Shown here: positions 895-22,531 of the stretch, piece after piece | Layout of the letters: every line of letters begins with the position of its first letter | Numbering within the stretch: position 1 is the stretch's first letter | IMG/VR virus record: IMGVR_UViG_3300009157_000030 | Span: 1-39,739 of that record | Strand: one strand, 5' to 3' | Source of the DNA: a virus | DNA length: 39,739 nt | Notes under the pieces: model-generated | Databases searched by the model: none | Told to the model about the DNA's origin: nothing | What the model saw: the letters and a program-made list of their open reading frames with translations, nothing else | Made by a program: the position numbers and the translations under genes

Positions 895-1551
895 ATGTCA
901 GAACCAAAGTGGTTAATTAAAACACCTGCGGAATTCATTTGCACAGATAATTATTATCTGATCAAAGGAAAAAAATACGCACGTGTAACTCGAATCAATA
1001 GTATCATCGATAAACCAGAATTAAAAAACTGGTATGCGAAAACAGGTCCAATAAAGGCAAAAGAAATATTAAAAAAACGTGCAGGATTTGGATCAACACT
1101 ACATAAATTGATTGAAGTAACACTAAAAAAAGAAGTATTAACAAAAGCAAATTATGATTCAATGTTAATAGAAAGCATTGAATTATTTGAAAAGTGGCAA
1201 GAAAAACATGAATTACTACCAGACTCACTTGAACAACATCTCTGGTCTGAAAAACACAAGTATGCGGGAACTGCCGACTACATTGGAATATTCGATGGTA
1301 AATTATACATTCTTGATTGGAAATCATCAAGAGGAATTTACGATGAATATTGGTTGCAAATGGCAGCATATGTAAATGCATTTGAAGAACAGACAGGGTT
1401 AAAAGTAGAGGGAGTTGGAATATTACAAATTCGTGATGGAGAGACAAATTTCATAACAAAATCATACGATGAAATAATGAGTGTCTACTTCCCAGTATTT
1501 CTTGCTGCAATGACAATATATAATTGGAAACATAAAGGTGAGGTAGAATGA
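895..1551 (+). CDS. RecB/Cas4-like PD-(D/E)XK nuclease
   Basis: A 218-residue single-domain nuclease. The expected motifs are in order: H70 in GFGSTLHKLIE, D128 in GTADYIG, D141-x-K143 in ILDWKSS, and Q155/Y159 in LQMAAY, as in the RecB-type exonuclease family. It would cut or resect DNA with a metal ion. It ends ATGA-overlapped with the next gene, and the T-arm-like hairpin lies just upstream. No Cys cluster of the Cas4 type is seen, so an iron-sulfur version is unlikely. Its place between capsid and neck genes is unusual; DNA processing linked to packaging is one idea, late expression of a recombination nuclease another. Confidence 0.8.
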   Translation: MSEPKWLIKTPAEFICTDNYYLIKGKKYARVTRINSIIDKPELKNWYAKTGPIKAKEILKKRAGFGSTLHKLIEVTLKKEVLTKANYDSMLIESIELFEKWQEKHELLPDSLEQHLWSEKHKYAGTADYIGIFDGKLYILDWKSSRGIYDEYWLQMAAYVNAFEEQTGLKVEGVGILQIRDGETNFITKSYDEIMSVYFPVFLAAMTIYNWKHKGEVE

Positions 1552-2498
1552 AACATTACATCGTAACTCAACCAAAAGAATTTGGAACATATCTTCGTGG
1601 AGATACAGTTGACATATACATTAATATAAAAGATACACTAACTAATCAATTAAGTGATCCAAGTTCTGTAAATATTACAATTAGAAGTCCATCAAATGTG
1701 GTGGTAGATGGACCAACTCCAATGATAAATTTATCAACCGGTATCTATGAACATGAATACTCAATACCAACGAGCACGACCATTTACCCATTTGGTATTT
1801 ACGAGGCACATATTTCAACAGTTACAGATAGTTCATTAACTGTTTTTAATTTCGTTGTATTTCCTTGGGATGTTGTCTCAAGAATAAGATCATTATCTGG
1901 AATTTCGCAACAGGCAGACATATCAGATTATCATTTAGCAACACTCGCATGGTTAGCATACGAAGAAACACTTGAGACAATATATGAAATGCACGAAAAA
2001 GAAAAACCATTGTGCGATCCAGTTACAGGTGATTATATTGATGGAGTAAATACAACATTTCAATTAACGAATTATCCATTAGCTGATCACAACGGAGATG
2101 AACAAATAACTGGTTCTGGTCAAATAGCATATGGGTGGGATGTTGAAGGTTATTATATTGATTCAACCGGTGCTAAACAAACATGTATAATTACTGTTTC
2201 AGATTCAAGTTACGGAATGGTAACAATAACAACCGGTGGTGCAACACCAATACCCGCAGACGCATGTGGAATTTACGTTAAATATTACACAGAATCACCA
2301 ACATATAACAAACAATTAATGCAAGAAGCAGTCGCATGTTTATCTGCATATAAGGCAGCAATCGCATTCCAAAGTTTAAATAAAGCAACTCTTGCAGATT
2401 TACAAACAAACAGAGACATGCTATACAATAGATTCCTAATAAGGTATGATCAAATAATTGAGGAAATAGGATTTCCAAATATTGGTGCAGGTAAATAA
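1548..2498 (+). CDS. Putative head-tail connector / neck protein
   Basis: A 316-residue protein not matched to a named family. The first 105 or so residues look like an immunoglobulin-like beta sandwich (YLRGDTVDIYINIKD, then GIYEHEYSIPT, then FGIYEAHIS), as in adhesive or bacterial macroglobulin-type domains. A middle part (about 150-245) is beta-rich, and the last 60 residues are helical (QLMQEAVACLSAYKAAIAF). The helical N-to-C 'connector' pattern and its position between the capsid and tail genes suggest an adaptor at the head-tail joint carrying a decorative Ig domain. It starts on the stop of the nuclease gene with GGTGAGGT upstream. Confidence 0.45.
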   Translation: MKHYIVTQPKEFGTYLRGDTVDIYINIKDTLTNQLSDPSSVNITIRSPSNVVVDGPTPMINLSTGIYEHEYSIPTSTTIYPFGIYEAHISTVTDSSLTVFNFVVFPWDVVSRIRSLSGISQQADISDYHLATLAWLAYEETLETIYEMHEKEKPLCDPVTGDYIDGVNTTFQLTNYPLADHNGDEQITGSGQIAYGWDVEGYYIDSTGAKQTCIITVSDSSYGMVTITTGGATPIPADACGIYVKYYTESPTYNKQLMQEAVACLSAYKAAIAFQSLNKATLADLQTNRDMLYNRFLIRYDQIIEEIGFPNIGAGK

Positions 2499-2506
2499 GT
2501 GGTAGA

Positions 2507-4096
2507 ATGACTTGGGCAGATATAAACTATGAATATAAAAAGACAATCACTGTCGATAAGAATAGAGTATATCATACCATAACAGACTACCCAATTTTAG
2601 TTTACAAAGTAGATGTTGATCTAAAAGATGTTTCAAACGGTGGACATGTGAGATCATCTTCTGGATTTGACATATGCTTCTATGATTCAACAGAAACAAT
2701 AAAATTAAAACATGAACTCGTTGGATATGATCCAATAACTGGAAAACTTTATTGTTTTGTGAAACAAACAATAACACCATCAGCAGACACTATAATATAT
2801 ATGTATTATGGAAATGTTCACCAAACAACAGATCAATCAACAACCGATACGTGGAATTCAAACTATACTGCCGTATATCACATGAAAGATTTTGATACAT
2901 CGCACGTGCATGATAGCACAATTAATGCAAATCATCTAACAAAAAATGCAGTAAATACTCCAATAGAGTCATCGACTGCTAAGTTTCACAGATCACAATA
3001 TTTCGATGGTGCTCTTACAACATTTATGGATGCAGCAAGTCCAGTTGTTGGAACAGGTGCAAAATCAGTTATTTTTCACGTTAAAAAACCAACAGATGCA
3101 AATAGAAATGTTGGTATTTCAAATTCTGATGTAAATGAATACTCTGGAATAACAATGAGAATAAGACCTTCAACGTGGTCAGTTGCATTTAGAGTTGGAA
3201 ATGGTGCACCCGTAGGAGAATACTTTGATTTCGTTTCACTCGATCTATATGATTACATACGATGGTGTATGTATATTTTCGTCTGTTCAACGGTTGCAGA
3301 CCCACTTCATCCGGAATATAGTTTTCCAAGATTACATGGATACAATGAACAGGGAGATCACTGGTTTAGTGGTGCACCAGTTGGAACAGAAGCAGCAGGA
3401 ACAAGTAATTTAAGATTCGGTAAATCATACTCCGCTTCAATACCATATCCATTTAAAGGATACCTCGAAGAAGTTGAAATTTTAAATGTTCAATTAATGG
3501 AGGATCAAGTTTGGACAATAATGGAAAACCAATGGTATTCTTCAACATTTTATTCATTTGGAATCGAAGAAGTAGCACCACCATTACCACCAACACCAGA
3601 CCCAGTTTATGAAAGTTTTGATCCACGAAAAGACATAAGAGATGGCATAAGCACAGAGGCAGATATATATTCAAGTGGAGTTAATCAGAAAGTTTTAACA
3701 TTTACTGATATAAACGGAAATATACAACAGATTCCAATATACTTATCAGAAGAAACAAAATCAAGTAATTCACCATTACCTTCTTTACCATTGATTGAAT
3801 TATGTCTTGTTTGGGAGAAATCAGACCCACAAGATATAGGTGCAGATACAAGAAAAAATTTTGCACATGTTGATATCAATATTTACTATCAACATAACGA
3901 TGAAGTCGATCAAACAATATTGGGCCAAGAAATTGCAGACACATTATGCAATATAATAAGATTAAAACAAACACAATTAATCCCTGGTGTTAGTTTTGTA
4001 AACTTCAATGGAGTGAGTTACATACCACCAGAAGTTCGTGATAGACAGGTTGTTTATCACATAAACATAGAATTAGAAGCACTATGGTATAATTGA
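2507..4096 (+). CDS. Neck protein with DUF2341 and LamG-like adhesion domains
   Basis: 529 residues in three parts. Residues 1-105 match the DUF2341 pattern (YKKTITVDK, DYPILVYK, SGFDICFYDS, then IIYMYYGN). Residues about 120-355 match a LamG/concanavalin-like sandwich (YTAVYHMKD, HDSTINANHL, YFDGA, GYLEEVEILN). Residues about 368-529 form a domain repeated in the protein at 4600-6540, with FDPRK, IPIYLSE, SPLPSLPLIEL, INIYYQ, IADTLC and EVRDRQVVY shared. The gene order suggests this C-terminal domain is a tail-completion or tail-terminator type subunit and the N-terminal parts are exposed carbohydrate binders. The virion location is inference; the domain duplication is direct. Confidence 0.65.
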   Translation: MTWADINYEYKKTITVDKNRVYHTITDYPILVYKVDVDLKDVSNGGHVRSSSGFDICFYDSTETIKLKHELVGYDPITGKLYCFVKQTITPSADTIIYMYYGNVHQTTDQSTTDTWNSNYTAVYHMKDFDTSHVHDSTINANHLTKNAVNTPIESSTAKFHRSQYFDGALTTFMDAASPVVGTGAKSVIFHVKKPTDANRNVGISNSDVNEYSGITMRIRPSTWSVAFRVGNGAPVGEYFDFVSLDLYDYIRWCMYIFVCSTVADPLHPEYSFPRLHGYNEQGDHWFSGAPVGTEAAGTSNLRFGKSYSASIPYPFKGYLEEVEILNVQLMEDQVWTIMENQWYSSTFYSFGIEEVAPPLPPTPDPVYESFDPRKDIRDGISTEADIYSSGVNQKVLTFTDINGNIQQIPIYLSEETKSSNSPLPSLPLIELCLVWEKSDPQDIGADTRKNFAHVDINIYYQHNDEVDQTILGQEIADTLCNIIRLKQTQLIPGVSFVNFNGVSYIPPEVRDRQVVYHINIELEALWYN

Positions 4097-4107
4097 TGGT
4101 GAAAAAC

Positions 4108-4578
4108 ATGACAGACACAAACATAAATGAAAAAAGCATAAAGGTTACAGGAACTTTACATATCGTATTGACCGATGAACACGGAAACATAATACAAGAG
4201 TCATGGGAAGAAAATCTTGTCGTTACCGTAGGATTAGCACACATCGCAGATCAACTAAGTAGTGTTCACGATGAATTAGCAATGAGTCACATGGCAATAG
4301 GTAATGATGACGATCCTGCACCCGCATTAGGAAATACGACATTAAATAGTGAACTCGGTAGAGTCGCATTGACAAGTAGAACACAAGGTGTTGTTTTGAC
4401 AAACACTGTCGTTTACGTTGCAACATTTCCACCAGGAACGGGAACAGGAAATATCGTTGAAGCAGGATTATTTAATGCAGCAGTTGCGGGAACAATGCTC
4501 TGCCGTAGTATCTTTGCAGTAAAACCAAAAGGTGCGTTAGATACATTAAATGTCACATGGACATTAACAATAGCTTAA
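4108..4578 (+). CDS. Conserved phage virion protein (tail-fibre type)
   Basis: About 156 residues. The pattern (VVTVGLAHIADQL, then MAIGNDD, then TTLNSELGR, VVYVATFPPGTGTGNIVEAGLFN and DTLNVTWTLTI) is one I recognise from many phage structural modules, usually labelled tail-fibre or hypothetical protein. It lies between the two adhesion/neck fusions. The ATG at 4108 is chosen because GGTGA lies six bases upstream; a TTG at 4093 and an ATG at 4096 in the same frame are less well placed. It probably forms part of the neck or tail fibre assembly; the exact role is not known. Confidence 0.6.
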   Translation: MTDTNINEKSIKVTGTLHIVLTDEHGNIIQESWEENLVVTVGLAHIADQLSSVHDELAMSHMAIGNDDDPAPALGNTTLNSELGRVALTSRTQGVVLTNTVVYVATFPPGTGTGNIVEAGLFNAAVAGTMLCRSIFAVKPKGALDTLNVTWTLTIA

Positions 4579-4599
4579 ATAAATAATAGATGATGTGAA

Positions 4600-6540
4600 A
4601 TGACAGACACGATCTTCCAATGGGATACAACTGAAACCAGTTCTGGTTCATCTGCGAGTAATCAAGCAAGATTACCGTTAGAGGCATCCGGAACATACGA
4701 TTTCATTGTATATTGGGGAGATGGATCGAATAATCACATAACAGTTTGGAATCAACCAGAAGTTACTCACACGTATGCATCCGGTGGAATGAAAACAATT
4801 ACAATAAGTGGAACATGTTACGGATTTAGATTCAATAATACAGGTGATAGACGAAAATTGAGAGAAGTAACACAGTGGGGTAGTTTAAGAGTTGGTAACA
4901 ATCAAAATTATTTCTACGGGTGTAATTTCATTAGAGTATATGCAACCGATAATCTTGATCTAACTGGAACAACGGATATGACAGGAATATTCAGAGAAGC
5001 AAATTATCTAAACGATGCAAGTGTTGGAAATTGGAACACATCCGGTGTTACAATTATGACAAATGCATTTTATAATGCAACAAGATTCAATAAAAGTCTA
5101 AATAGTTGGAATGTTTCAAATGTAACAAACATGAGTGGGATGTTCTGCGGTGCAGCAGCATTTAATGGAAATATAACAAGTTGGAATACATCTAACGTAA
5201 CAAACATGAATGATATGTTTAATGCAGCAGGTGGATTTAATCAAAATATTGGAAGTTGGGATACATCAAAGGTTACAACAATGACAGGAATGTTTGCATT
5301 TGCAGCAACATTTAATCAAAACATTGGTGGATGGGATACACACTTAGTCACAACAATGTATGCAATGTTCTATGGTGCAGCAGCGTTTAATCAACATTTA
5401 AACAGTTGGAATGTTTCAAATGTGACAAACATGATGTTTATGTTTAGAAATGCATCAGTATTTAATGGTAATATATCGAGTTGGGATACATCAAAAGTAA
5501 CAAATATGGATGCAATGTTTCAACAGGCATATTTATTCAATCAAAATATTAGTGGATGGGATACACACTTAGTTACAAACATGGAAGAAATGTTCGATTA
5601 TGCAAATGCTTTTAATCAAAATCTCGGTAGTTGGAATGTTGCAAATTGTAATTATTTTGCAGACATGTTTTATCATTGCACACTATCAACTGCAAATTAT
5701 GATGGTATATTGATAGGGTGGTCTGCTCAGACACTAAAAACATATAAAACGATAAGTTTCGGATTTTCAACATACTGTGCAGTTGCAGCGAGAGCAATAT
5801 TAACTGGAACATATCACTGGACAATCACAGATGGTGGAATGTCTGGATCGTGCGGAAGCACATTAACACTAACGATAGCAGATACAACAACTGGAATAAC
5901 AGATTCACCAGTTGAACAAGCTGATTACAATGTGGCTATTTCAGATACATCAATAATAACAGATTTACTTTCAAATTCAATAATTTATAATATAAGTATT
6001 GCAGATTCAGTTTTAACAACTGATCTAATAAGTCTAAACAGAATAAAATATTACACGTTCTTTGATCCAAGAAAAGCAATTAGAGACACAATAGGTTCTT
6101 TAATTGACATAAATTCAGACGGTAGAGATTGGCGATCTATAACAGTGGTTGTTGATGGAAATGATCATCACATCCCGATATATTTATCTGAACAAACAAA
6201 ATCACACAACTCACCACTTCCAACTTTACCATTAATTGAATTAGAGTTATCCTCGAGTAAAACAATTCCAGAGAATGTTATGGCAACAGTTAGACGATGT
6301 GAGGCAATCGTAAAACTGAATATCTACTATCAGAGAGAGGATAATGTAGATCAAGCAGACTTTGGAAAATTGATTGCAGATGAATTATGTAATCAAATAA
6401 GAAACAATCAGTGTTCTATACCAGGAACGCAATTTGTAAATGTGAGAAGCACGGGTCGTGTAATCACAGAAGTTCGTGAAAGACAGGTTGTGTATAAAAG
6501 AGTAATGGAGGCATATGCGTTATTCTACGACACACCATAA
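4600..6540 (+). CDS. Neck protein with PKD-like and BspA-type LRR (DUF285) adhesion domains
   Basis: 646 residues. The start is PKD-like ([16 protein letters not shown], then [17 protein letters not shown]; about 30-75). Residues about 143-370 hold nine 25-residue BspA-type repeats of the form [24 protein letters not shown], capped by a region typical of DUF285 proteins ([19 protein letters not shown]). Three short repeats of the IADS-TDLIS type follow (about 425-480). The last 160 residues are the neck domain also found at the end of the protein at 2507-4096. This is a surface-exposed binding protein mounted on a structural base; host-surface binding is inferred from the repeat family. Confidence 0.7.
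5029..5700 (+). repeat. Tandem 75-bp coding repeats (DUF285/BspA type)
   Basis: About nine in-frame units of 75 bp encode 25-residue repeats. Units starting with [16 protein letters not shown] and WDTHLVT recur in the same order twice, so a three-unit block was probably duplicated. Such arrays change length by recombination, a common way to vary a binding surface. Confidence 0.8.
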
Positions 6541-6578: not shown

Positions 6579-7463
6579 ATGGCAAGTTTAGGACTTCCCT
6601 TTCAGGGAAAAATCTGGTATTATGTCGAATCTGCCTACGGTAGTGGACCGTCATCAGTAGGTGAATTGCCCATTTCCGTTAAGGTAGTTGACGCAAAACC
6701 AGGAGTAGGCGACAAGCACAAAAAGTTGAGAGGAATCGATAAACGAGAAGCGTGTTATTTGCTCGAACAGTGTAACGATTTTACATTCCACTTAGAATAC
6801 ATCCCACAAGTTGGAGATACTCTATTTGAGGATGTAAATATCAGTGATCCAAGTGATTGTAGATTAGAAACAGTTGCTTTCGTTCTTGTTACAAATGACT
6901 GTCTCGGTGCTGATCAATCGATCTATCTTATCTCAGGTGCAAAGGTTAAAACAACACGTGTATCCGCAAGTCACAATACAGAATATATGTATGTGATGGA
7001 TTTTAGCGTTGAGAGCATTGTTACTGCATCATCGCCAACAGGATACTCCGAACCTGCTGCACTCACGGGAGACATCTGTGCTTTTAATGTCGCAGGATCG
7101 ATAACTAAAGACGGTGGAGACTTTGCATACATCCTGAATTCAATCGATGTAACAATCGATCAAGGAATAAAGGACTACTGGGATCACGATTCACTCGAAA
7201 AACAATTTGCAATAGAGGGTGAATTCAACGTAGAAGGATCAGTAGATATTTCACTCGATGAGGGTGGTGCGATGCATTTCGCAGAGGTCTTAGCACAAGA
7301 TGATTTCACAATCGTCTTAAATCTCGGTGCTGCCGGTGCACCAAAGATCACCATCAACAACTGTAAGTGGAAGAACAGTTCAATCGATGTCAACATCTCC
7401 GGTGAAGATATGAAGGAGTCTGCACCATTTACTGGTAAGACAATTTCATACGCAACTGTCTAA
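6579..7463 (+). CDS. Major tail tube protein
   Basis: A 294-residue beta-rich protein directly before the tail chaperone and tape measure genes, the standard place for the tail tube subunit. A very strong ribosome site (AGGAGG at about 6564-6569, eight or so bases before ATG) fits an abundant structural protein. The C-terminal half (AIEGEFNVEGSVDISLDEG, then ITINNCKWKNSSIDVNISGED) resembles the tail-tube beta-sandwich pattern. No contractile sheath gene is visible, which together with the tape measure points to a siphovirus-like tail. The function rests on gene order more than on sequence identity. Confidence 0.7.
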   Translation: MASLGLPFQGKIWYYVESAYGSGPSSVGELPISVKVVDAKPGVGDKHKKLRGIDKREACYLLEQCNDFTFHLEYIPQVGDTLFEDVNISDPSDCRLETVAFVLVTNDCLGADQSIYLISGAKVKTTRVSASHNTEYMYVMDFSVESIVTASSPTGYSEPAALTGDICAFNVAGSITKDGGDFAYILNSIDVTIDQGIKDYWDHDSLEKQFAIEGEFNVEGSVDISLDEGGAMHFAEVLAQDDFTIVLNLGAAGAPKITINNCKWKNSSIDVNISGEDMKESAPFTGKTISYATV

Positions 7464-8131: not shown

Positions 8132-11100
8132 ATGGCCGGAGATGTTGAGAAAAAGATTACTATAAAATACTCGAGCACTGGTTTAGCTGAACTCACTCGG
8201 CAAACAGAAAATTACAGTCGGAGTTTAAAGACAATTACAACTACGAACCAAACTCTCAACACTCAAACTGGAACATGGCAAACAACGAGTCAGTCGATTA
8301 GAAACACCACTGGAACAATGGGTGGATTGAAGGGTGCACTGACAAGCACAATGATGGGATTCATCGGAATAAACGCAGCGATAGGTTATGCATCGGAGGC
8401 ATACCAAGAACTTCGTAAATGGATAGATGCATCAGTCGTTTCATATAGAGCATTCGAGTATCAGATCGCAGAGGTCAGTTCCATCTTAGATAGCACAACC
8501 AGGGATACATTACCATCACTTGAAGTTGGTCTTTCAACTCTATCGATAACATACGGTAAATCAATCGGTGATCTTACAAAAGGATTATATGAAATAGTTT
8601 CAGCAGCTTTCGATGTCGATGATGCAATGAACCTATTGAATGTTGTTACAAAAGCATCAATGGCAGGATTAACAACTGTTGAGGGTGCTGTTAAAACCTT
8701 TACCGGTGTTCTAAACGCTTATGGACAATCTGCTGCACATGCTGCGGAATTATCTGATCAGATGTTCGAAGCAGTTATTCGTGGTAATTTTACATTTAAA
8801 GACTTAGAAGGATCACTTGGATATGTAGTTCCAATTGCTGCAAACCTTGGTGTTGAATTTAAAGAAGTTGCTGCATCACTTGCAACCGCAACAAGACAAG
8901 GACAACACATAGATTCAGTGACAAGGGGTCTTGGTCTTTTAATGCAGGGAATGGTTGATCCAACGAAGGAAGCATCCGAAGCAGCAAAGAAATATGGAAT
9001 AGACATGTCAGCAACCGCTTTAAGAATAACGGGATTAACTGGATTCTTCAAACAATTACACGATGCAACTCAAAAATATGGTATGCAAATTCTACCAGAA
9101 TTAATTGGAAACATGAGATCATTGAGAGTAGCGATGGCATTAACTGGTGATGAAGGAATACAGGGATTCACGGAAGATATGGCACTGTTGGAAACCGCAA
9201 CTGGTAAAACCGATGCTGCATTAGCTGCGATGATGAACACTCAGAAAACAATGTCTGACATCCTAACTCAATCAATGGAAAAAGTAAATAGAAGTATTGG
9301 TGAAGCATGGTCTGGTGTCGATATCTGGTGGAAGAAAGCACAATTATGGTGGGGAACTTTATTATCCGGTGGAGATGCCGATAAAGCAGTCCAGGGATTC
9401 GACTCCGCAGTAGAAGCAATGCGTCAATCTTACATTCAAAATATAGTTCAACCTGCTGCATCCGGTGAAAAAACAATCTTTGATAAATTACAAGAAATGG
9501 ATGTTCCATCAACCGTAACACCTGCTTTTTCAAAATTGATTAAAGATACAATGCAATTTGGCACTGTTAAACAATACCTTGACGTTACAGATCAGGCAGA
9601 ATCGTTAAATAAGGAAGCAACCGCAGCAACAAATGCACAATTGGCAATTAAATCATTATTGTATCAAGCGGAAGTTGCCGGTAAAGAATTAAATAAAAAG
9701 AGTGTTTCCCCATTACGATATCACTATGATCAGAATATGAATAAGGGTATGCAATACGTTGATCAAAACACTCTTGCAGTTGCTAACCAAGCATTATCCG
9801 TTCTCGGAATGAATACCGTTGATACAACAATGTCAATATCAGAATTAAATAAAGTTCTTGAGAATGTTAATGTTAGAAGTGCAGATTTAACTGGTTCACT
9901 CGAAGGTGTAACGAAAGCAGAGAACGAATTAAGACCCGCAGTAGATCAATTTCAATCAGCATTCGAGGACATGAGTGCAGCGATAGCTGATCACCAAGAC
10001 AACATAGTATCACTTGAGGCAGAATTAAGAAAACTCGAAGAACAAATAAGTGATACATATAAGGGATTCTCTGGAAAACTTACATATGAAGTTGAAGTTA
10101 AAATATCAGAAAACAAAATGGATCAATTTCAAGAGTATTCAAACATGGCAGCAAAGTATGGATCAGAATACATAAATGAATGGACAAATGTATTTGATCA
10201 ATATGGTAACAACATGTCAGATGTTCTCAAAACTATCTACGAATATAACGATGCATTGGAAGAACAAACACGTGCACAACAGGAAGCGAAGAATGCAGCG
10301 AGAGAACTTGAAATACAACTTGCAGAGAACAACATTCAGATGCTTAAACTACAATTGGCCGGTATGATGAGGCGTAGAGGAAACACACGTGCAGAACAAC
10401 GTGAAATGAAAATGATTGAGATTGAAAATACTAAAATTAGAATTCAACAAATGCAACAACAGTATGATGAACAAGTTGCAAACCATGAAGAAACAAACGA
10501 TGCAACTCGATCAGCTTATGAGGAAGCACAACAGATTCTTCAAGCATACACTGATTATGAAAAACATCAATTGTGGTTACTGAAAGACACACGTGCGGAG
10601 GACATTGCCGATCTTCAACAGAACATACAAGATCAGAAAACACTGTATGAATCAAGAACAAAGATGTTGCAGGATGAGTATGCACAATTGAACTCGATGA
10701 CAACATTATACACACAAACATTGATGGCAGTTGCTCGTGATCCTGAACTTGCAGCACAGTATAAAAAATTCTTCGGTATCGATGCAATGGAACAGGCACG
10801 TATTGCATACGAAGATTACATAACTTTCGTTTCACAAAATCCAGTATCGGGAGGAGTTGGGGGATCGGGTGGTGGAGTTCCTAAAGTTAACACATATAGA
10901 GTTAAATCAACTAATCCACCACCGGATTTCGTTGGTCCAATTCTTGAAAAATCAGTTACATCATCGAGTGGTGTGACAAAATCATACAATTGGAAAACAG
11001 GTGTTGGTGATAAATCAATCACATCATTGAAGATTGGAGACACAATCGGATGGACAAGAGGAACTAACTATATTCCAGAAACGGGAATGTATCAATTACA

Positions 11101-11293
11101 TAAATATGAAAAAGTAGTTCCGGCAGGTGGGGAAGGTGGAGAATCAATTTCAAATGTTGTTACAATTAATATTAACAATCCTCAAGTGAACAGTGATCAA
11201 GATATTTCAAAACTTGCGAGAACCCTTGAGAACGTGATGAGAGCAAACCTTACCGATAAAAAATACGGCAAGAGTAAACACAGGATAGCATAA
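8132..11293 (+). CDS. Tail tape measure protein
   Basis: 1053 residues, the longest gene here. The N-terminal third (about 75-330) has the phage tape-measure pattern: a hydrophobic segment (STMMGFIGINAAIGYASEAY), then VVTKASMAGLTTVEGAVKTF and a TIGR01760-like core. Residues about 600-880 are coiled coil, rich in Q, E and K. A glycine linker (about 905-915) leads to a C-terminal domain with WTRGTNYIPETGMYQLHK, a motif common at tape-measure ends. It would set the tail length (roughly 0.15 nm per residue in known systems) and pass into the host envelope. GGTGA lies six bases before the ATG, and the gene begins right after the chaperone stop. Confidence 0.9.
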   Translation: MAGDVEKKITIKYSSTGLAELTRQTENYSRSLKTITTTNQTLNTQTGTWQTTSQSIRNTTGTMGGLKGALTSTMMGFIGINAAIGYASEAYQELRKWIDASVVSYRAFEYQIAEVSSILDSTTRDTLPSLEVGLSTLSITYGKSIGDLTKGLYEIVSAAFDVDDAMNLLNVVTKASMAGLTTVEGAVKTFTGVLNAYGQSAAHAAELSDQMFEAVIRGNFTFKDLEGSLGYVVPIAANLGVEFKEVAASLATATRQGQHIDSVTRGLGLLMQGMVDPTKEASEAAKKYGIDMSATALRITGLTGFFKQLHDATQKYGMQILPELIGNMRSLRVAMALTGDEGIQGFTEDMALLETATGKTDAALAAMMNTQKTMSDILTQSMEKVNRSIGEAWSGVDIWWKKAQLWWGTLLSGGDADKAVQGFDSAVEAMRQSYIQNIVQPAASGEKTIFDKLQEMDVPSTVTPAFSKLIKDTMQFGTVKQYLDVTDQAESLNKEATAATNAQLAIKSLLYQAEVAGKELNKKSVSPLRYHYDQNMNKGMQYVDQNTLAVANQALSVLGMNTVDTTMSISELNKVLENVNVRSADLTGSLEGVTKAENELRPAVDQFQSAFEDMSAAIADHQDNIVSLEAELRKLEEQISDTYKGFSGKLTYEVEVKISENKMDQFQEYSNMAAKYGSEYINEWTNVFDQYGNNMSDVLKTIYEYNDALEEQTRAQQEAKNAARELEIQLAENNIQMLKLQLAGMMRRRGNTRAEQREMKMIEIENTKIRIQQMQQQYDEQVANHEETNDATRSAYEEAQQILQAYTDYEKHQLWLLKDTRAEDIADLQQNIQDQKTLYESRTKMLQDEYAQLNSMTTLYTQTLMAVARDPELAAQYKKFFGIDAMEQARIAYEDYITFVSQNPVSGGVGGSGGGVPKVNTYRVKSTNPPPDFVGPILEKSVTSSSGVTKSYNWKTGVGDKSITSLKIGDTIGWTRGTNYIPETGMYQLHKYEKVVPAGGEGGESISNVVTININNPQVNSDQDISKLARTLENVMRANLTDKKYGKSKHRIA

Positions 11294-17436: not shown

Positions 17437-17869
17437 TTTTCTTCATCCATTTTTTAAAATCATCGAGTGTTTTAAATCTATGATCTGCGTATATTCTGAT
17501 CCAAGGATGTTCACAGTAATTTTCACTTACAACGATAACGAGTTTACCTGTCTTGTGTGCGTGTGATATCTCGAGACATGTTCCGATACTTGGTTCGTGA
17601 ATGATTGTAAATAGACCATCACGGTTATCGATGTTTGCAAGATCACGATATACGAGTTCTTCACAGTCTTTTTGTGTTCTCCGGTATTTTATGCAATCCG
17701 TTCTTCCGTTCTTTGATAGAATAAGTCTGCGATCTTTTCGTGACATAGCATCGAAGAAAGGATTATGCAGATTTAGATTATAGTCACGTTCAAGTTCTAA
17801 TTCGATGACTCTGAATTCGTGTCTGCGATCAAAACTGTGTGCGAGATACAAATCGAGTTTCTTTTTCAT
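17405..17869 (-). CDS. Nucleoside 2-deoxyribosyltransferase-like protein
   Basis: 154 residues. YLAHSFDRR near the start and SIGTCLEISHAHKTGKLVIVV in the second half are the two recognisable blocks of the NDT fold (nucleotide-binding front and the GTxxE-A-x-GK segment with the catalytic-type Glu); NPFFDA lies between. Known members move deoxyribose between bases or hydrolyse nucleosides; related folds cleave NAD. The substrate here is unknown. It overlaps the SGNH gene by four bases. A role in nucleotide salvage or in countering nucleotide-based defence would fit, both inference. Confidence 0.6.
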   Translation of the reverse strand: MKKKLDLYLAHSFDRRHEFRVIELELERDYNLNLHNPFFDAMSRKDRRLILSKNGRTDCIKYRRTQKDCEELVYRDLANIDNRDGLFTIIHEPSIGTCLEISHAHKTGKLVIVVSENYCEHPWIRIYADHRFKTLDDFKKWMKKNGYKKKTVNI

Positions 17870-18546
17870 TTTTTAATTCCTCCTAATTGCCTAATTTCAT
17901 CCTTTATCATCCCATATAAAATCGCATGTCCTGTTTCAGACAGATGTTGACCATCCTTATGTATCATTTCTGAATAATGTCTCGTCATGTAATTCAAATT
18001 GACATGCACACAATCATACTGATATATTAGTTTTCTTAGAACATCATTGTATGAGAAAATATTGTTTCTGACACCGTAATTTCTACATGCGATACTATTT
18101 GAAACATCGGAGATGTCGATGATGATTGGGATCGCATTTGAACTTCTAATCTTTGACAATAGTTTTACCATGTTCCAATAAAATTCATCTTTAGACACCA
18201 AAACTTTTGGGAATGTTTTAGTGAACTCATATCTATATTTTGTAATTGGATACAGTGCGATTTTTCTAACTTGGGCAGGAAAAATAGACAATATTTTTCT
18301 TGTTCTGGCATCAAGCAATCGTGGAAAACAATCAACGATACCAAGATGAACAATAACGTAATCAGATAGTAAGACGGAGAACAAACTACCATTACATGCA
18401 TCTCTTGTTGTATTTCCATAAACAGAATCCATTACTATATCATAATCATTTTCAAGCAATGCTGCATATGTTTTTTCAAATGGAATATCATCTCTCGGTA
18501 GTGAAAGAGAATCACCAATTATTGCCATAGTTTTCTTTTTTTGCAT
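17866..18546 (-). CDS. SGNH/GDSL hydrolase-like protein
   Basis: 226 residues. IIGDSLS (Ser13) is block I; YGNTT near 43-47 and VHLGIVD near 65-71 fit blocks II-III; DGQHLSETGH (Asp198, His201) is block V. Family members are esterases or acyl-transferases, many acting on acetylated sugars. No signal peptide, so it would act in the cytoplasm. The gene overlaps the glycosyltransferase-like gene by 28 bases; an ATG at 18528 (MAIIGDS) is an alternative start. Together with that neighbour it suggests glycan modification. Confidence 0.7.
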   Translation of the reverse strand: MQKKKTMAIIGDSLSLPRDDIPFEKTYAALLENDYDIVMDSVYGNTTRDACNGSLFSVLLSDYVIVHLGIVDCFPRLLDARTRKILSIFPAQVRKIALYPITKYRYEFTKTFPKVLVSKDEFYWNMVKLLSKIRSSNAIPIIIDISDVSNSIACRNYGVRNNIFSYNDVLRKLIYQYDCVHVNLNYMTRHYSEMIHKDGQHLSETGHAILYGMIKDEIRQLGGIKK

Positions 18547-19745
18547 TTTGACAACTCCTTAATAACATGAACAACCATCTCCGCACTGTCGCCAAAGAAG
18601 GCCAATTTTTTCTGTATGTAAATCTCACGTGATGCTGCAAACGATTTTCTATACCAAGGTTGCAAACAGGTGTTTATTGCTAAATTGAGATCACCTATAT
18701 CGTTAGTTCTAAGTTCGACATCACTACCGAATTGATCAAAGAAACTTAAAAAATCTGGATGCATTAGAATGATTGGAATACCTTCAATTACTGCTTCAAA
18801 TGATGTGTATGATGCCATCGATACCTGAACATCGCACCGCTTTAAAACTTCTGTGAATGGTTTCTCTTTTCCTATTATTTCACAGTTTGTTAAACCAGAG
18901 AACATCTCAAAGTATGATTCTTTATTCTCAGATGGATGAACTTTAACAATGAATTTTATTAGTGGATTTTGTGTCACAACATCTACTAATTCTTGTCTAA
19001 GTAGGACATCTTGTCCAGGTTTAAGCAATCCCATATCGATCAATCGTGAATACGGTTGTGTGCACAATAGCACCGTTGGCTTACCCACCGTGATTTTAAC
19101 TTTATTATCAATACACCGATCAAAAACGTGATTTCCAACAATGAGTGTATGATCAATCACTCGCTTATTTTTAATCTGACTTGCAAAATCATCATTCCAC
19201 AATAATAGATAATTGCTTGATCGTTCACATCCATATACGAACTGATGTCGTTCAACCGGAAGATTTAAAAGTTTATTGCATAGAATATAACGAATACTTG
19301 CAGTTATTTTTTGTTTTAAAGAATAACCTGGGGTATCTATAAAACAAGGTTGAATAACAAAAAATGAAACCTTGTTCTTGTATGCCCAATCATTTATTAA
19401 TCTGGTTGCAACACCGCCCATGTCAGATGTTGTTATGATAGCGTCAGGTTTCAATTCTTTAAGCAATGAATCAATGTTGTTTGCAAGTCTTTGTTTTAAT
19501 TTTAAAACTTTAATTATATTTTTAAGTGGATCGTGATGAATATAATAATCAATTGATTCAATGAGATATTTATCAAGTTCAACGAGATCATCGAATCCCA
19601 TTTTATGAACAGTGCTGAATAAATGTTTTTTTGGTTCTTCATTTGTATCGAGATAAATATTGCGATGAAATACTGCTTCGTTTGCAATACTTGAGAACAA
19701 TGCATCGTTCAAGTATTTTGGGAGTGATATATAGACTATGTTCAT
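18519..19745 (-). CDS. GT-B glycosyltransferase-like protein
   Basis: 408 residues in two Rossmann-like halves. The C-terminal half has PTVLLCTQPYSR, LIKFIVKVHPSENKESY and VQVSMASYTSFEAVIEGIPIILMHPD, a pattern like capsule, polysialyl- and CDP-glycerol-type transferases (the KVHPxE motif). The N-terminal half includes LKPDAIITTSDMGGVATRLI. It could attach or extend a sugar polymer on host surface, virion or DNA. The gene sits between a SemiSWEET-sized membrane protein and an SGNH hydrolase and overlaps both. Donor and acceptor cannot be told. Confidence 0.6.
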   Translation of the reverse strand: MNIVYISLPKYLNDALFSSIANEAVFHRNIYLDTNEEPKKHLFSTVHKMGFDDLVELDKYLIESIDYYIHHDPLKNIIKVLKLKQRLANNIDSLLKELKPDAIITTSDMGGVATRLINDWAYKNKVSFFVIQPCFIDTPGYSLKQKITASIRYILCNKLLNLPVERHQFVYGCERSSNYLLLWNDDFASQIKNKRVIDHTLIVGNHVFDRCIDNKVKITVGKPTVLLCTQPYSRLIDMGLLKPGQDVLLRQELVDVVTQNPLIKFIVKVHPSENKESYFEMFSGLTNCEIIGKEKPFTEVLKRCDVQVSMASYTSFEAVIEGIPIILMHPDFLSFFDQFGSDVELRTNDIGDLNLAINTCLQPWYRKSFAASREIYIQKKLAFFGDSAEMVVHVIKELSKCKKRKLWQ

Positions 19746-20002
19746 TTATTTTCCCATCCTATCCTATTAAGAATATAGAAGTTCAATATTAGTTGTGAGA
19801 TCGCAACACTCAGAGCAAGGTATGTTCCAAGCATTGCGTATGCAATCACAACTAAGATGAGGGAGGTTATTTTTAATTTGAAGTGTGTTCTACTGAAAGC
19901 AGAGCAGTCATAATTCTTATTGACAAATAGTTTCCATGCCTGTTTTAAATCAGCGAACACAAAACCTAAACTTGCTGCGGTCAATATTAAATCTGCGATC
20001 AT
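19742..20002 (-). CDS. Three-helix membrane protein, SemiSWEET/PQ-loop-like
   Basis: 86 residues with three predicted helices (LILTAASLGFVFADL, KITSLILVVIAYAMLG and LALSVAISQLILNFYIL). Length, helix count and the turn LKQAWKLFVNKNYDCSAFS, which stands where PQ-loop proteins have PQxxKxxKxKS, suggest a SemiSWEET-like fold. The Pro-Gln pair itself is missing, so this is tentative. It overlaps both neighbours by four bases. Confidence 0.45.
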   Translation of the reverse strand: MIADLILTAASLGFVFADLKQAWKLFVNKNYDCSAFSRTHFKLKITSLILVVIAYAMLGTYLALSVAISQLILNFYILNRIGWENK

Positions 20003-20823
20003 TCGTATCGATCTCCTCTATCTGCGAATATTGTAAGAATTCGCTTACCTTTTAATTTCTGTGCAACAACAAAGTTTGCAGCAGACGAATATCCAATATC
20101 GATTCCATAATCGAATCGAAGCATATTTTTAACCGTGATGACCTCATTCATGGTAATATCATGGACTATTAGATTACATTCTCGTGGTTTAAGTGGTAGT
20201 GGAACACCATCACTCGTTCCTTCGATAGCACCGTCTATACAACGAAATGTATGGTAGTTTGCACTTGGGAATACGTTAAATAGCCCTGCAAGAGTGCCGG
20301 AAGTGCCTATTCCAACGACAATATCAGTTGGTGGGTAATAAATTGGCCTGTGATCCAATGCTGACATGAATTCAGGTTCTATTTCTTTTGCCATAACTGT
20401 CTGTGCAGCTAAGTTTGCAATACTATCGAACTGATTGGTCCATGTTGTGGGTGTGCCAGTTTTATTGAACATGCTTAAATCTTTCTGTAATTCTGTCATG
20501 CTATCTTTAATATCTTTACATGTCACAACAGTTGCACCATACTTTAAGATCATTTCTACCTTTCGTTTTGAAGTTGTAATTGGTAAATAAATTATACACT
20601 TACCGGAAAATCCGAGTGCTGAATACAATGCAGCGAGAGAAATTCCAGTATTGCCACTTGTGGCCTCCATAATTGTATGATTCTTAGGAACTTTTGAAAG
20701 CATATATAGTGCGGTGCGATCTTTAATCGATCCGGTTAAATTCATAAATTCACATTTAATTAGAATGTTATCTATTGACATGCACGGTGTGTTTCCTATT
20801 AGTCGATTTACATTTATTGTCAT
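19999..20823 (-). CDS. Cysteine synthase-like PLP enzyme (CysK/CysM family)
   Basis: 274 residues of fold type II. Motifs in order: LIGNTP (8-13), NLTGSIKDR with the PLP lysine K34, TSGNTGIS (55-62), substrate-loop-like NQFDSIAN (130-137), phosphate loop GIGTSGT (171-177), GYSSAANF near 245, and ADRGDRY at the end. It would use O-acetylserine (or O-phosphoserine) and sulfide to make cysteine. Slightly shorter than cellular CysK (about 310). A serine-acetyltransferase-like gene lies at 33179-33682. Other members of the family, such as diaminopropionate or cystathionine enzymes, cannot be excluded. Confidence 0.8.
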   Translation of the reverse strand: MTINVNRLIGNTPCMSIDNILIKCEFMNLTGSIKDRTALYMLSKVPKNHTIMEATSGNTGISLAALYSALGFSGKCIIYLPITTSKRKVEMILKYGATVVTCKDIKDSMTELQKDLSMFNKTGTPTTWTNQFDSIANLAAQTVMAKEIEPEFMSALDHRPIYYPPTDIVVGIGTSGTLAGLFNVFPSANYHTFRCIDGAIEGTSDGVPLPLKPRECNLIVHDITMNEVITVKNMLRFDYGIDIGYSSAANFVVAQKLKGKRILTIFADRGDRYE

Positions 20824-21957: not shown

Positions 21958-22293
21958 TTAATCACTCTCTTTGACATAAACCAGTGGAATGAATATATCC
22001 TTTCCTTTTTTCTTTGTGACGAGAACTGCTTTAAGTGATAGTTTGTCAGCGAGTTTTTTTAGTTCTGCGATTTCTTTTTCTGGTGTCTTTGCTTCCGTTG
22101 CCTTGCACTGAATAAGAATAGGAACGTAGTCTAATTCTTTTCCACGAAACCAATGACCAATTGGTGGGAATGCTATCAAGTCTGCGGGTGAATGTGAACC
22201 GGCCATTCTAAATACAACGAAACCTGCTTTTTCGTAGTGTTTTTTGATCTTGTATTCGAATGCACGACCCTTCACGTAATTCTTATTGGGCAT
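21958..22293 (-). CDS. hjc: Archaeal Hjc-type Holliday junction resolvase
   Basis: 111 residues from ATG 22293. KGRAFEYKIKKHYEKAGFVVFRMAGSHSPADLIAF, then PILIQCKA, then KAVLVTKKK is the Hjc layout: E in the first helix, the GS-x-SPAD metal site and the Q/E-x-K motif. As a dimer it would cut four-way junctions formed in replication or recombination before packaging. GAGG lies about ten bases before the ATG; the longer frame to 22371 has no good ribosome site. Archaeal viruses and hosts carry this form; bacterial phages rarely do. Confidence 0.8.
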   Translation of the reverse strand: MPNKNYVKGRAFEYKIKKHYEKAGFVVFRMAGSHSPADLIAFPPIGHWFRGKELDYVPILIQCKATEAKTPEKEIAELKKLADKLSLKAVLVTKKKGKDIFIPLVYVKESD

Positions 22294-22531
22294 TGTCTTT
22301 CTTTTCCTCTTTTGCTTTTTCTTCTGCTTTCTGTTTATCATAATTGGTGAGATCGATATCCATTGCACCAACTACTGCCTCGAGATTATTTGCGATATGC
22401 GGTGATCCCAATTTGAGAAAGATTTCTCTCATTTCAGTTATGACTTTGCGTGAGTTCTTGTAAAACTGAATAACTGATTTTTCAAGCGATTCGATTTCTT
22501 CTTTTGTTGGTTTACCTTCATCGTCTGTCAT
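22283..22531 (-). CDS. Small charged helical protein, unknown
   Basis: 82 residues, predicted helical, ending with KAEEKAKEEKKDNAQ. Overlaps Hjc by 11 bases and the next gene by one. Not recognised. Confidence 0.55.
   Translation of the reverse strand: MTDDEGKPTKEEIESLEKSVIQFYKNSRKVITEMREIFLKLGSPHIANNLEAVVGAMDIDLTNYDKQKAEEKAKEEKKDNAQ

Follow-up and report, generated by a model that had tools for sequence, protein, structure and literature searches.

What are two large proteins with a common C-terminus and unrelated N-termini doing at the neck of one virus? The question is raised by the left end of an IMG/VR virus record from an uncultured tailed virus, analysed here over its full 39,739 nucleotides (the window). 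At this end the capsid and exonuclease genes come first, then the adaptor-like gene and headed copy 1; a small gene of phrog_5417 separates this from headed copy 2, and the tail tube, two overlapping small ORFs and the tape measure follow. A headed copy is one of the two large proteins, with an N-terminal head in front of the common domain. The right end breaks off inside the terminase, and the portal-to-capsid stretch is absent from the record. The features of the locus are as follows.

1548..2498, + strand: adaptor/neck-like gene, 316 aa, directly upstream of copy 1; role suggested by position
2507..3577, + strand: head 1, DUF2341 (about 2666-2908), then a probable LamG-like beta-sandwich; PF10102 above cut-off, LamG weak
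3578..3616, + strand: proline-rich linker PPLPPTPDPVYES, read from the sequence, with no in-frame start codon nearby
3617..4096, + strand: putative terminator domain, copy 1, from AlphaFold2 and Foldseek; apparent pairing with the bare L018 copy
4093..4578, + strand: small phage gene, phrog_5417 (E=8e-24), related to the N-terminus of tail-collar fibre proteins
4600..5856, + strand: head 2, PKD-like start, then BspA-type DUF285/PARCEL repeats; PF03382, TIGR02167 and repeat array
5857..6057, + strand: repetitive stalk of ISDTSIITD / IADSVLTTD units, read from the sequence
6058..6540, + strand: putative terminator domain, copy 2, 51% identical to copy 1; apparent pairing with the DUF2341-headed L027 copy
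6579..7463, + strand: tail tube protein (Phage_tube_2, PF18906, E=3.6e-6)
8132..11293, + strand: tape measure protein (PF10145, E=1.5e-28, and many PHROG tape-measure matches)

Two fused proteins and their shared domain

The ORFs at 2507-4096 and 4600-6540 encode proteins of 529 and 646 aa. Compared by BLASTP, the two share a single significant alignment, which pairs residues 368-529 with 485-644 (51% identity, E=3e-42), and no similarity is detectable outside it. A preliminary description of this DNA had claimed related C-termini of about 160 residues behind unrelated N-termini; both claims hold, and all five motifs it quoted lie inside the alignment. Within the part of the genome that the record covers, a search with the shared domain found no copies beyond these two.

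The same description had labelled the first head DUF2341 plus LamG and the second PKD plus BspA-type LRR, and in each case one label is secure. The first protein contains DUF2341, a domain for which we know of no assigned function (PF10102, 28.7 bits vs a 23.4 cut-off). A Pfam search of the protein gave no LamG match after DUF2341; a LamG-like fold is suggested there by a weak profile match to 5hon (E=0.011), and the model of this part has low confidence (pLDDT about 30). The second protein contains DUF285 (PF03382, E=4e-93, 307.7 bits vs a cut-off of 25) and also matches the NCBIfam PARCEL repeat TIGR02167 (E=1.5e-27, 94.8 bits vs 30); the DNA of this head carries an array of 75-nt direct repeats at 4993-5637. 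Its N-terminus has no PKD match in Pfam or NCBIfam, and the PKD-like label comes from a WGDGS...HTY...TI motif. The PKD-like and DUF285 parts also occur together as a unit in an uncultured huge phage record of 462 kb (40% identity over 98%). PARCEL/DUF285 repeats have been described as horizontally dispersed (PMC2996958), which fits a role as cargo on a terminator. The stalk that follows is similar in style, judged by eye, to the stalks of headed proteins in L027, L028 and L005.

The identity of the shared domain is suggested by structure and position. An AlphaFold2 model built on a five-sequence alignment (pLDDT 78.3, pTM 0.77) was compared with the PDB by Foldseek, and the top matches are mostly tail terminators: the P74-26 neck (6.8e-7), T5 p142 (7.4e-6) and T4 gp15 (1.2e-5), followed by R4C (4.5e-5), HFTV1 (5.7e-5) and lambda gpU (3.7e-4), with DT57C, Mu and others. 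TM-scores are about 0.55-0.65 for the best matches and lower for many others, so the match holds at the level of the fold only. A second model, made for the full-length protein, again retrieves tail terminators with its terminator part, and tail completion, neck terminator and DUF3168 proteins are among the matches in a viral library. By sequence, copy 1 alone gives a weak PHROG match to the tail terminator profile phrog_179 (E=0.023), a profile search of the PDB found no match to the shared domain, and a profile search with the terminators of three relatives found no match to a curated terminator family.

Gene order agrees with the predicted fold. The gene lies between adaptor and tail tube in the window, in L005, in L027 and in 12 relatives with a bare terminator. 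The adaptor/neck-like gene occupies the same place in every relative that covers it (L004, L005, L009, L010, L012-L018, L021, L022 and L024), its L005 homologue having a weak MG2 match (PF01835, below cut-off), and wherever a relative covers both genes, the tube comes directly downstream of the terminator region. A tail-completion (HK97 gp10-like) protein was considered and ruled out. In L004 the completion protein is a gene of its own upstream (2139-2513, phrog_5), and the shared domain is therefore best called a tail terminator on its modelled fold. The earlier proposal of a "tail-completion or neck subunit" is thus narrowed: the neck part stands, the tail-completion part does not, and the structure prediction gives a virion neck fold, specifically that of a tail terminator, not a non-structural one.

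Homologues of the phrog_5417 gene are found between terminator and tube in L009, L010, L021, L022, L024 and L027 (2101-2571), and after both terminator copies in L005 (8446-8907). With this shifting place relative to the terminator copies, its protein could be another neck appendage.

Relatives and the histories of heads and bases

Relatives were found by alignment-based scans of viral contigs; single-sequence scans gave none. Twelve lineages (L003/L004, L009, L010, L012-L017, L021, L022 and L024) have one bare terminator of 159-173 aa between adaptor and tube, and searches of their whole records found no second terminator copy. Two copies occur at three loci, those of the window, L005 and L018/L027, and five of the six copies carry heads. 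The duplicated, headed state is therefore a minority (3 of 15 lineages in which the locus is visible), most lineages having a single bare copy; one or both copies are headed at every duplicated locus, and no head occurs in the 12 single-copy lineages, counts to be read with the shared ancestry of the 15 lineages, which are not independent cases.

The heads themselves differ among relatives. In L005, a 527-aa protein has a beta-propeller-like N-terminus (a weak PQQ match only), and a 637-aa protein has a beta-rich N-terminal domain that also occurs in distal tail proteins within this virus group, and long LND-type stalk repeats; no bare copy was found in the L005 record. L018 and L027 are two ends of one contig, on which a bare copy, truncated at the contig ends, is followed by a 670-aa protein composed of a DUF2341 head (36.8 bits in L027), a stalk and a terminator domain. 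Because the two ends do not overlap, the bare copy lacks a short piece. The gene that immediately follows the adaptor in L019 encodes LamG (Laminin_G_3, E=6e-20) and a weak fn3 match before it runs off the contig, and is probably another headed terminator. The expectation that N-terminal domains would vary across related viruses is thus borne out: the terminator is found bare, with DUF2341 on the other paralogue, with a possible beta-propeller, or with a beta-rich domain of distal-tail type.

A tree of 18 terminator domains groups copy 1 of the window with the bare L018 copy (support 80/91), copy 2 with the headed L018 copy (92/89), and both L005 copies with each other (89/92). The L005 pair may reflect a separate duplication. 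An independent duplication in L018 is rejected (both L018 copies held together, AU p=0.013), whereas a tree that holds both window copies together, as after a duplication in the window alone, is not rejected (AU p=0.21). The supports for the window/L018 pairs suggest orthology and are not decisive. If the pairing is right, the apparent orthologues of copy 1 would lack a head in L018 and carry DUF2341 in the window, and those of copy 2 would carry DUF2341 in L018 and the PKD-LRR head in the window.

The DUF2341 head follows a different pattern. The closest homologue of the window head (43% identity) lies at the distal-tail end of the L009 order; identity is 35% with the L018 neck head (L027 69-1145) and 30% with a free-standing L017 gene (6844-8034) that lies two genes upstream of the bare terminator, upstream of the adaptor. 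The same type of head is thus seen fused to a terminator, near the distal-tail genes and as a stand-alone gene. The relationships of heads and bases are discordant.

At the end of the L009 contig, L028 2-1306 (- strand) encodes a DUF2341 head with an SDTMTLTD stalk downstream of distal tail genes and is cut by the contig end. Small HNH-like ORFs, with Pfam matches below cut-off or none, are found at varying places between neck and tail genes (L010 7735-8046; L013 6555-6860; L015 6973-7266; L016 10573-10983; L019 10470-10799; L021 4407-4760). These are possible homing endonucleases that could promote local module exchange. An extra gene of 256-261 aa lies between capsid and exonuclease in L010 (6265-7035), L018 (10818-11603), L021 (1491-2261) and L024 (5249-6031); it is absent from the window, and the two examples tested had no family match.

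Searches outside the group were less informative. By tblastn, the terminator, capsid, tube and DUF2341 head all lack relatives among cultured phages, scans of genome contigs for host assignment found no relative, and the terminase has distant matches of mixed origin, haloviruses and a Thermoanaerobacterium phage among them. In the window, 21958-22371 (- strand) matches Mrr_cat above cut-off and, weakly, the archaeal Holliday-junction resolvase Hjc; the Hjc-like match is a faint hint to the host domain, insufficient for host assignment. The minus-strand cluster at 17866-20823 encodes a GDSL-lipase-like protein, a weak match to DUF354 (glycosyltransferase-like) and a pyridoxal-phosphate enzyme (PF00291, E=6e-37), and is unusual metabolic cargo.

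Proposed display at the neck and its alternatives

The tail terminator is a core assembly ring. It is probable, on balance of the evidence above, that the terminator gene was duplicated in this lineage and that unrelated surface-protein modules were fused in front of it through a proline-rich linker or a stalk. In the proposed mechanism, the tail tube would be capped by a six-fold ring of terminator subunits, which would also dock the tail to the head. Duplication of the gene would have been accompanied by the N-terminal joining of unrelated surface-protein modules to the copies, the headed copies would assemble as a hexamer with their heads on, and the heads would be displayed outward from the ring to bind surfaces. 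The neck ring would then most likely show exchangeable accessory adhesins outward. The preliminary description had suggested that the neck "may carry exchangeable binding heads", and the varied heads on one base across relatives support this; binding to host surfaces is suggested by the head families and, by analogy, by lactococcal neck modules.

Several observations bear on the steps of this mechanism. The heads join just before the first helix of the terminator domain, and in terminator rings, according to two reports, the helices lie outside the sheet (PMC12886913, PMC10276861). With a proline-rich linker or repetitive stalk at this junction, outward projection of the heads would be the natural reading. 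An internal start that would yield the terminator part as a separate product was considered and rejected, since no in-frame ATG, GTG or TTG occurs within 90 nt upstream of either domain; the fused form should therefore be the product. Because neither the window nor the L005 record contains a bare copy, the headed proteins probably form the functional capping ring in both. A bare third copy in the window's virus is conceivable, as its record lacks the terminase-to-capsid stretch. A more tentative extension, rather less likely than not, is that the terminator has become a dedicated platform for display, in which the two paralogues co-assemble in one mixed ring or form alternative rings, presenting two different adhesins at the neck, and that heads move among both copies, free-standing genes and the distal tail.

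Alternatively, one copy could be the true terminator and the other a different head-carrying neck component, such as a second stacked ring or collar, with the heads on different rings. T4 has two tail-capping rings, gp3 and gp15, which provide a precedent, and the one bare and one headed copy of L018 are what a cap and an add-on would look like. The age of the copies, about 50% identical with both reading frames intact, is also consistent with two roles. However, both copies are headed in the window and in L005, so neither is plainly the housekeeping copy, and both retain the residues that are conserved among bare terminators, which makes a division into two rings somewhat unlikely.

Display of adhesins also has to be weighed against a purely structural role and against chance. 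The heads might be decorations that stiffen or protect the neck, as suggested by Staphylococcus phage 812, in which a beta-sandwich of the terminator binds the sheath and neck decoration proteins are thought to reinforce the joint (PMC12886913). Conservation would be expected of a structural brace, whereas these heads are mutually unrelated, sit on stalks or linkers and are missing in most relatives, and some belong to families characteristic of surface proteins (DUF285/PARCEL; LamG in L019); a decorative role is accordingly quite improbable. Restriction of the fusions to just 3 of the 15 lineages with a visible locus could point to recent or decaying accidents without function, whether read-through fusions or chimeric assembly. 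Such accidents are very hard to reconcile with the same type of architecture on three separate contigs, frames that stay open over 527-670 codons with divergence greatest at third codon positions, copies that are about 50% diverged, and the lack of any stop or internal start between head and base.

If adhesin display is correct, a duplicated terminator with different large adhesins would be a further phage mount for receptor-binding parts, and host-range predictions based only on the tail tip would miss adhesins at the neck. Bare, one-headed and two-headed viruses with the same flanking genes would provide a natural comparison in which the use of neck adhesins becomes testable. The phage collection searched contains no cultured relative of this lineage, and the analysis would also provide structural annotation for an undescribed virus group.

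Known terminators and neck appendages

The window proteins resemble the terminators gpU (lambda), p142 (T5), gp17 (SPP1), R4C and HFTV1 in predicted fold, in position between adaptor and tube, and in the size of about 160 aa when bare, as in most relatives. To our knowledge, those terminators are single genes without adhesin domains, whereas the window has two copies with heads of 350-480 residues. Another likeness is gp99 of Staphylococcus phage 812, a terminator core with an added beta-sandwich in a decorated neck; the added domain binds the tail sheath and is not described as exchangeable or as an adhesin, nor, in the portions of the report available, is the gene described as duplicated (PMC12886913). 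Core tail ring proteins likewise carry carbohydrate-binding extensions in the 936-phage major tail protein (TpeX) and in evolved Dit, but these are other rings (tube and distal tail), and TpeX is reported to be added by programmed frameshift rather than by the plain fusion found in the window (PMC6669499). Searches of the open-licence literature turned up no duplicated terminator with exchangeable adhesin heads, although one may be described elsewhere.

The nearest known analogue is the neck passage structure (NPS) of lactococcal 936 and P335 siphophages, an ancillary neck collar with a conserved ring part and exchangeable carbohydrate-binding modules; 936 phages have seven NPS module classes, with host-cell binding demonstrated for one, and the collar of TP901-1 is non-essential (PMC6669499). 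Variable modules at the neck are thus already known; what would be new, judging from sequences and models, is a duplicated terminator as their base, with the heads N-terminal. Both systems place variable modules on a conserved neck base in some members only. In the NPS a separate protein serves as the base, with a BppU-like N-terminal ring domain and C-terminal modules, whereas the base in the window is a duplicated domain of predicted terminator fold at the C-terminus, behind N-terminal heads, and does not have the BppU-type layout. The two arrangements are alike in working and belong to different families.
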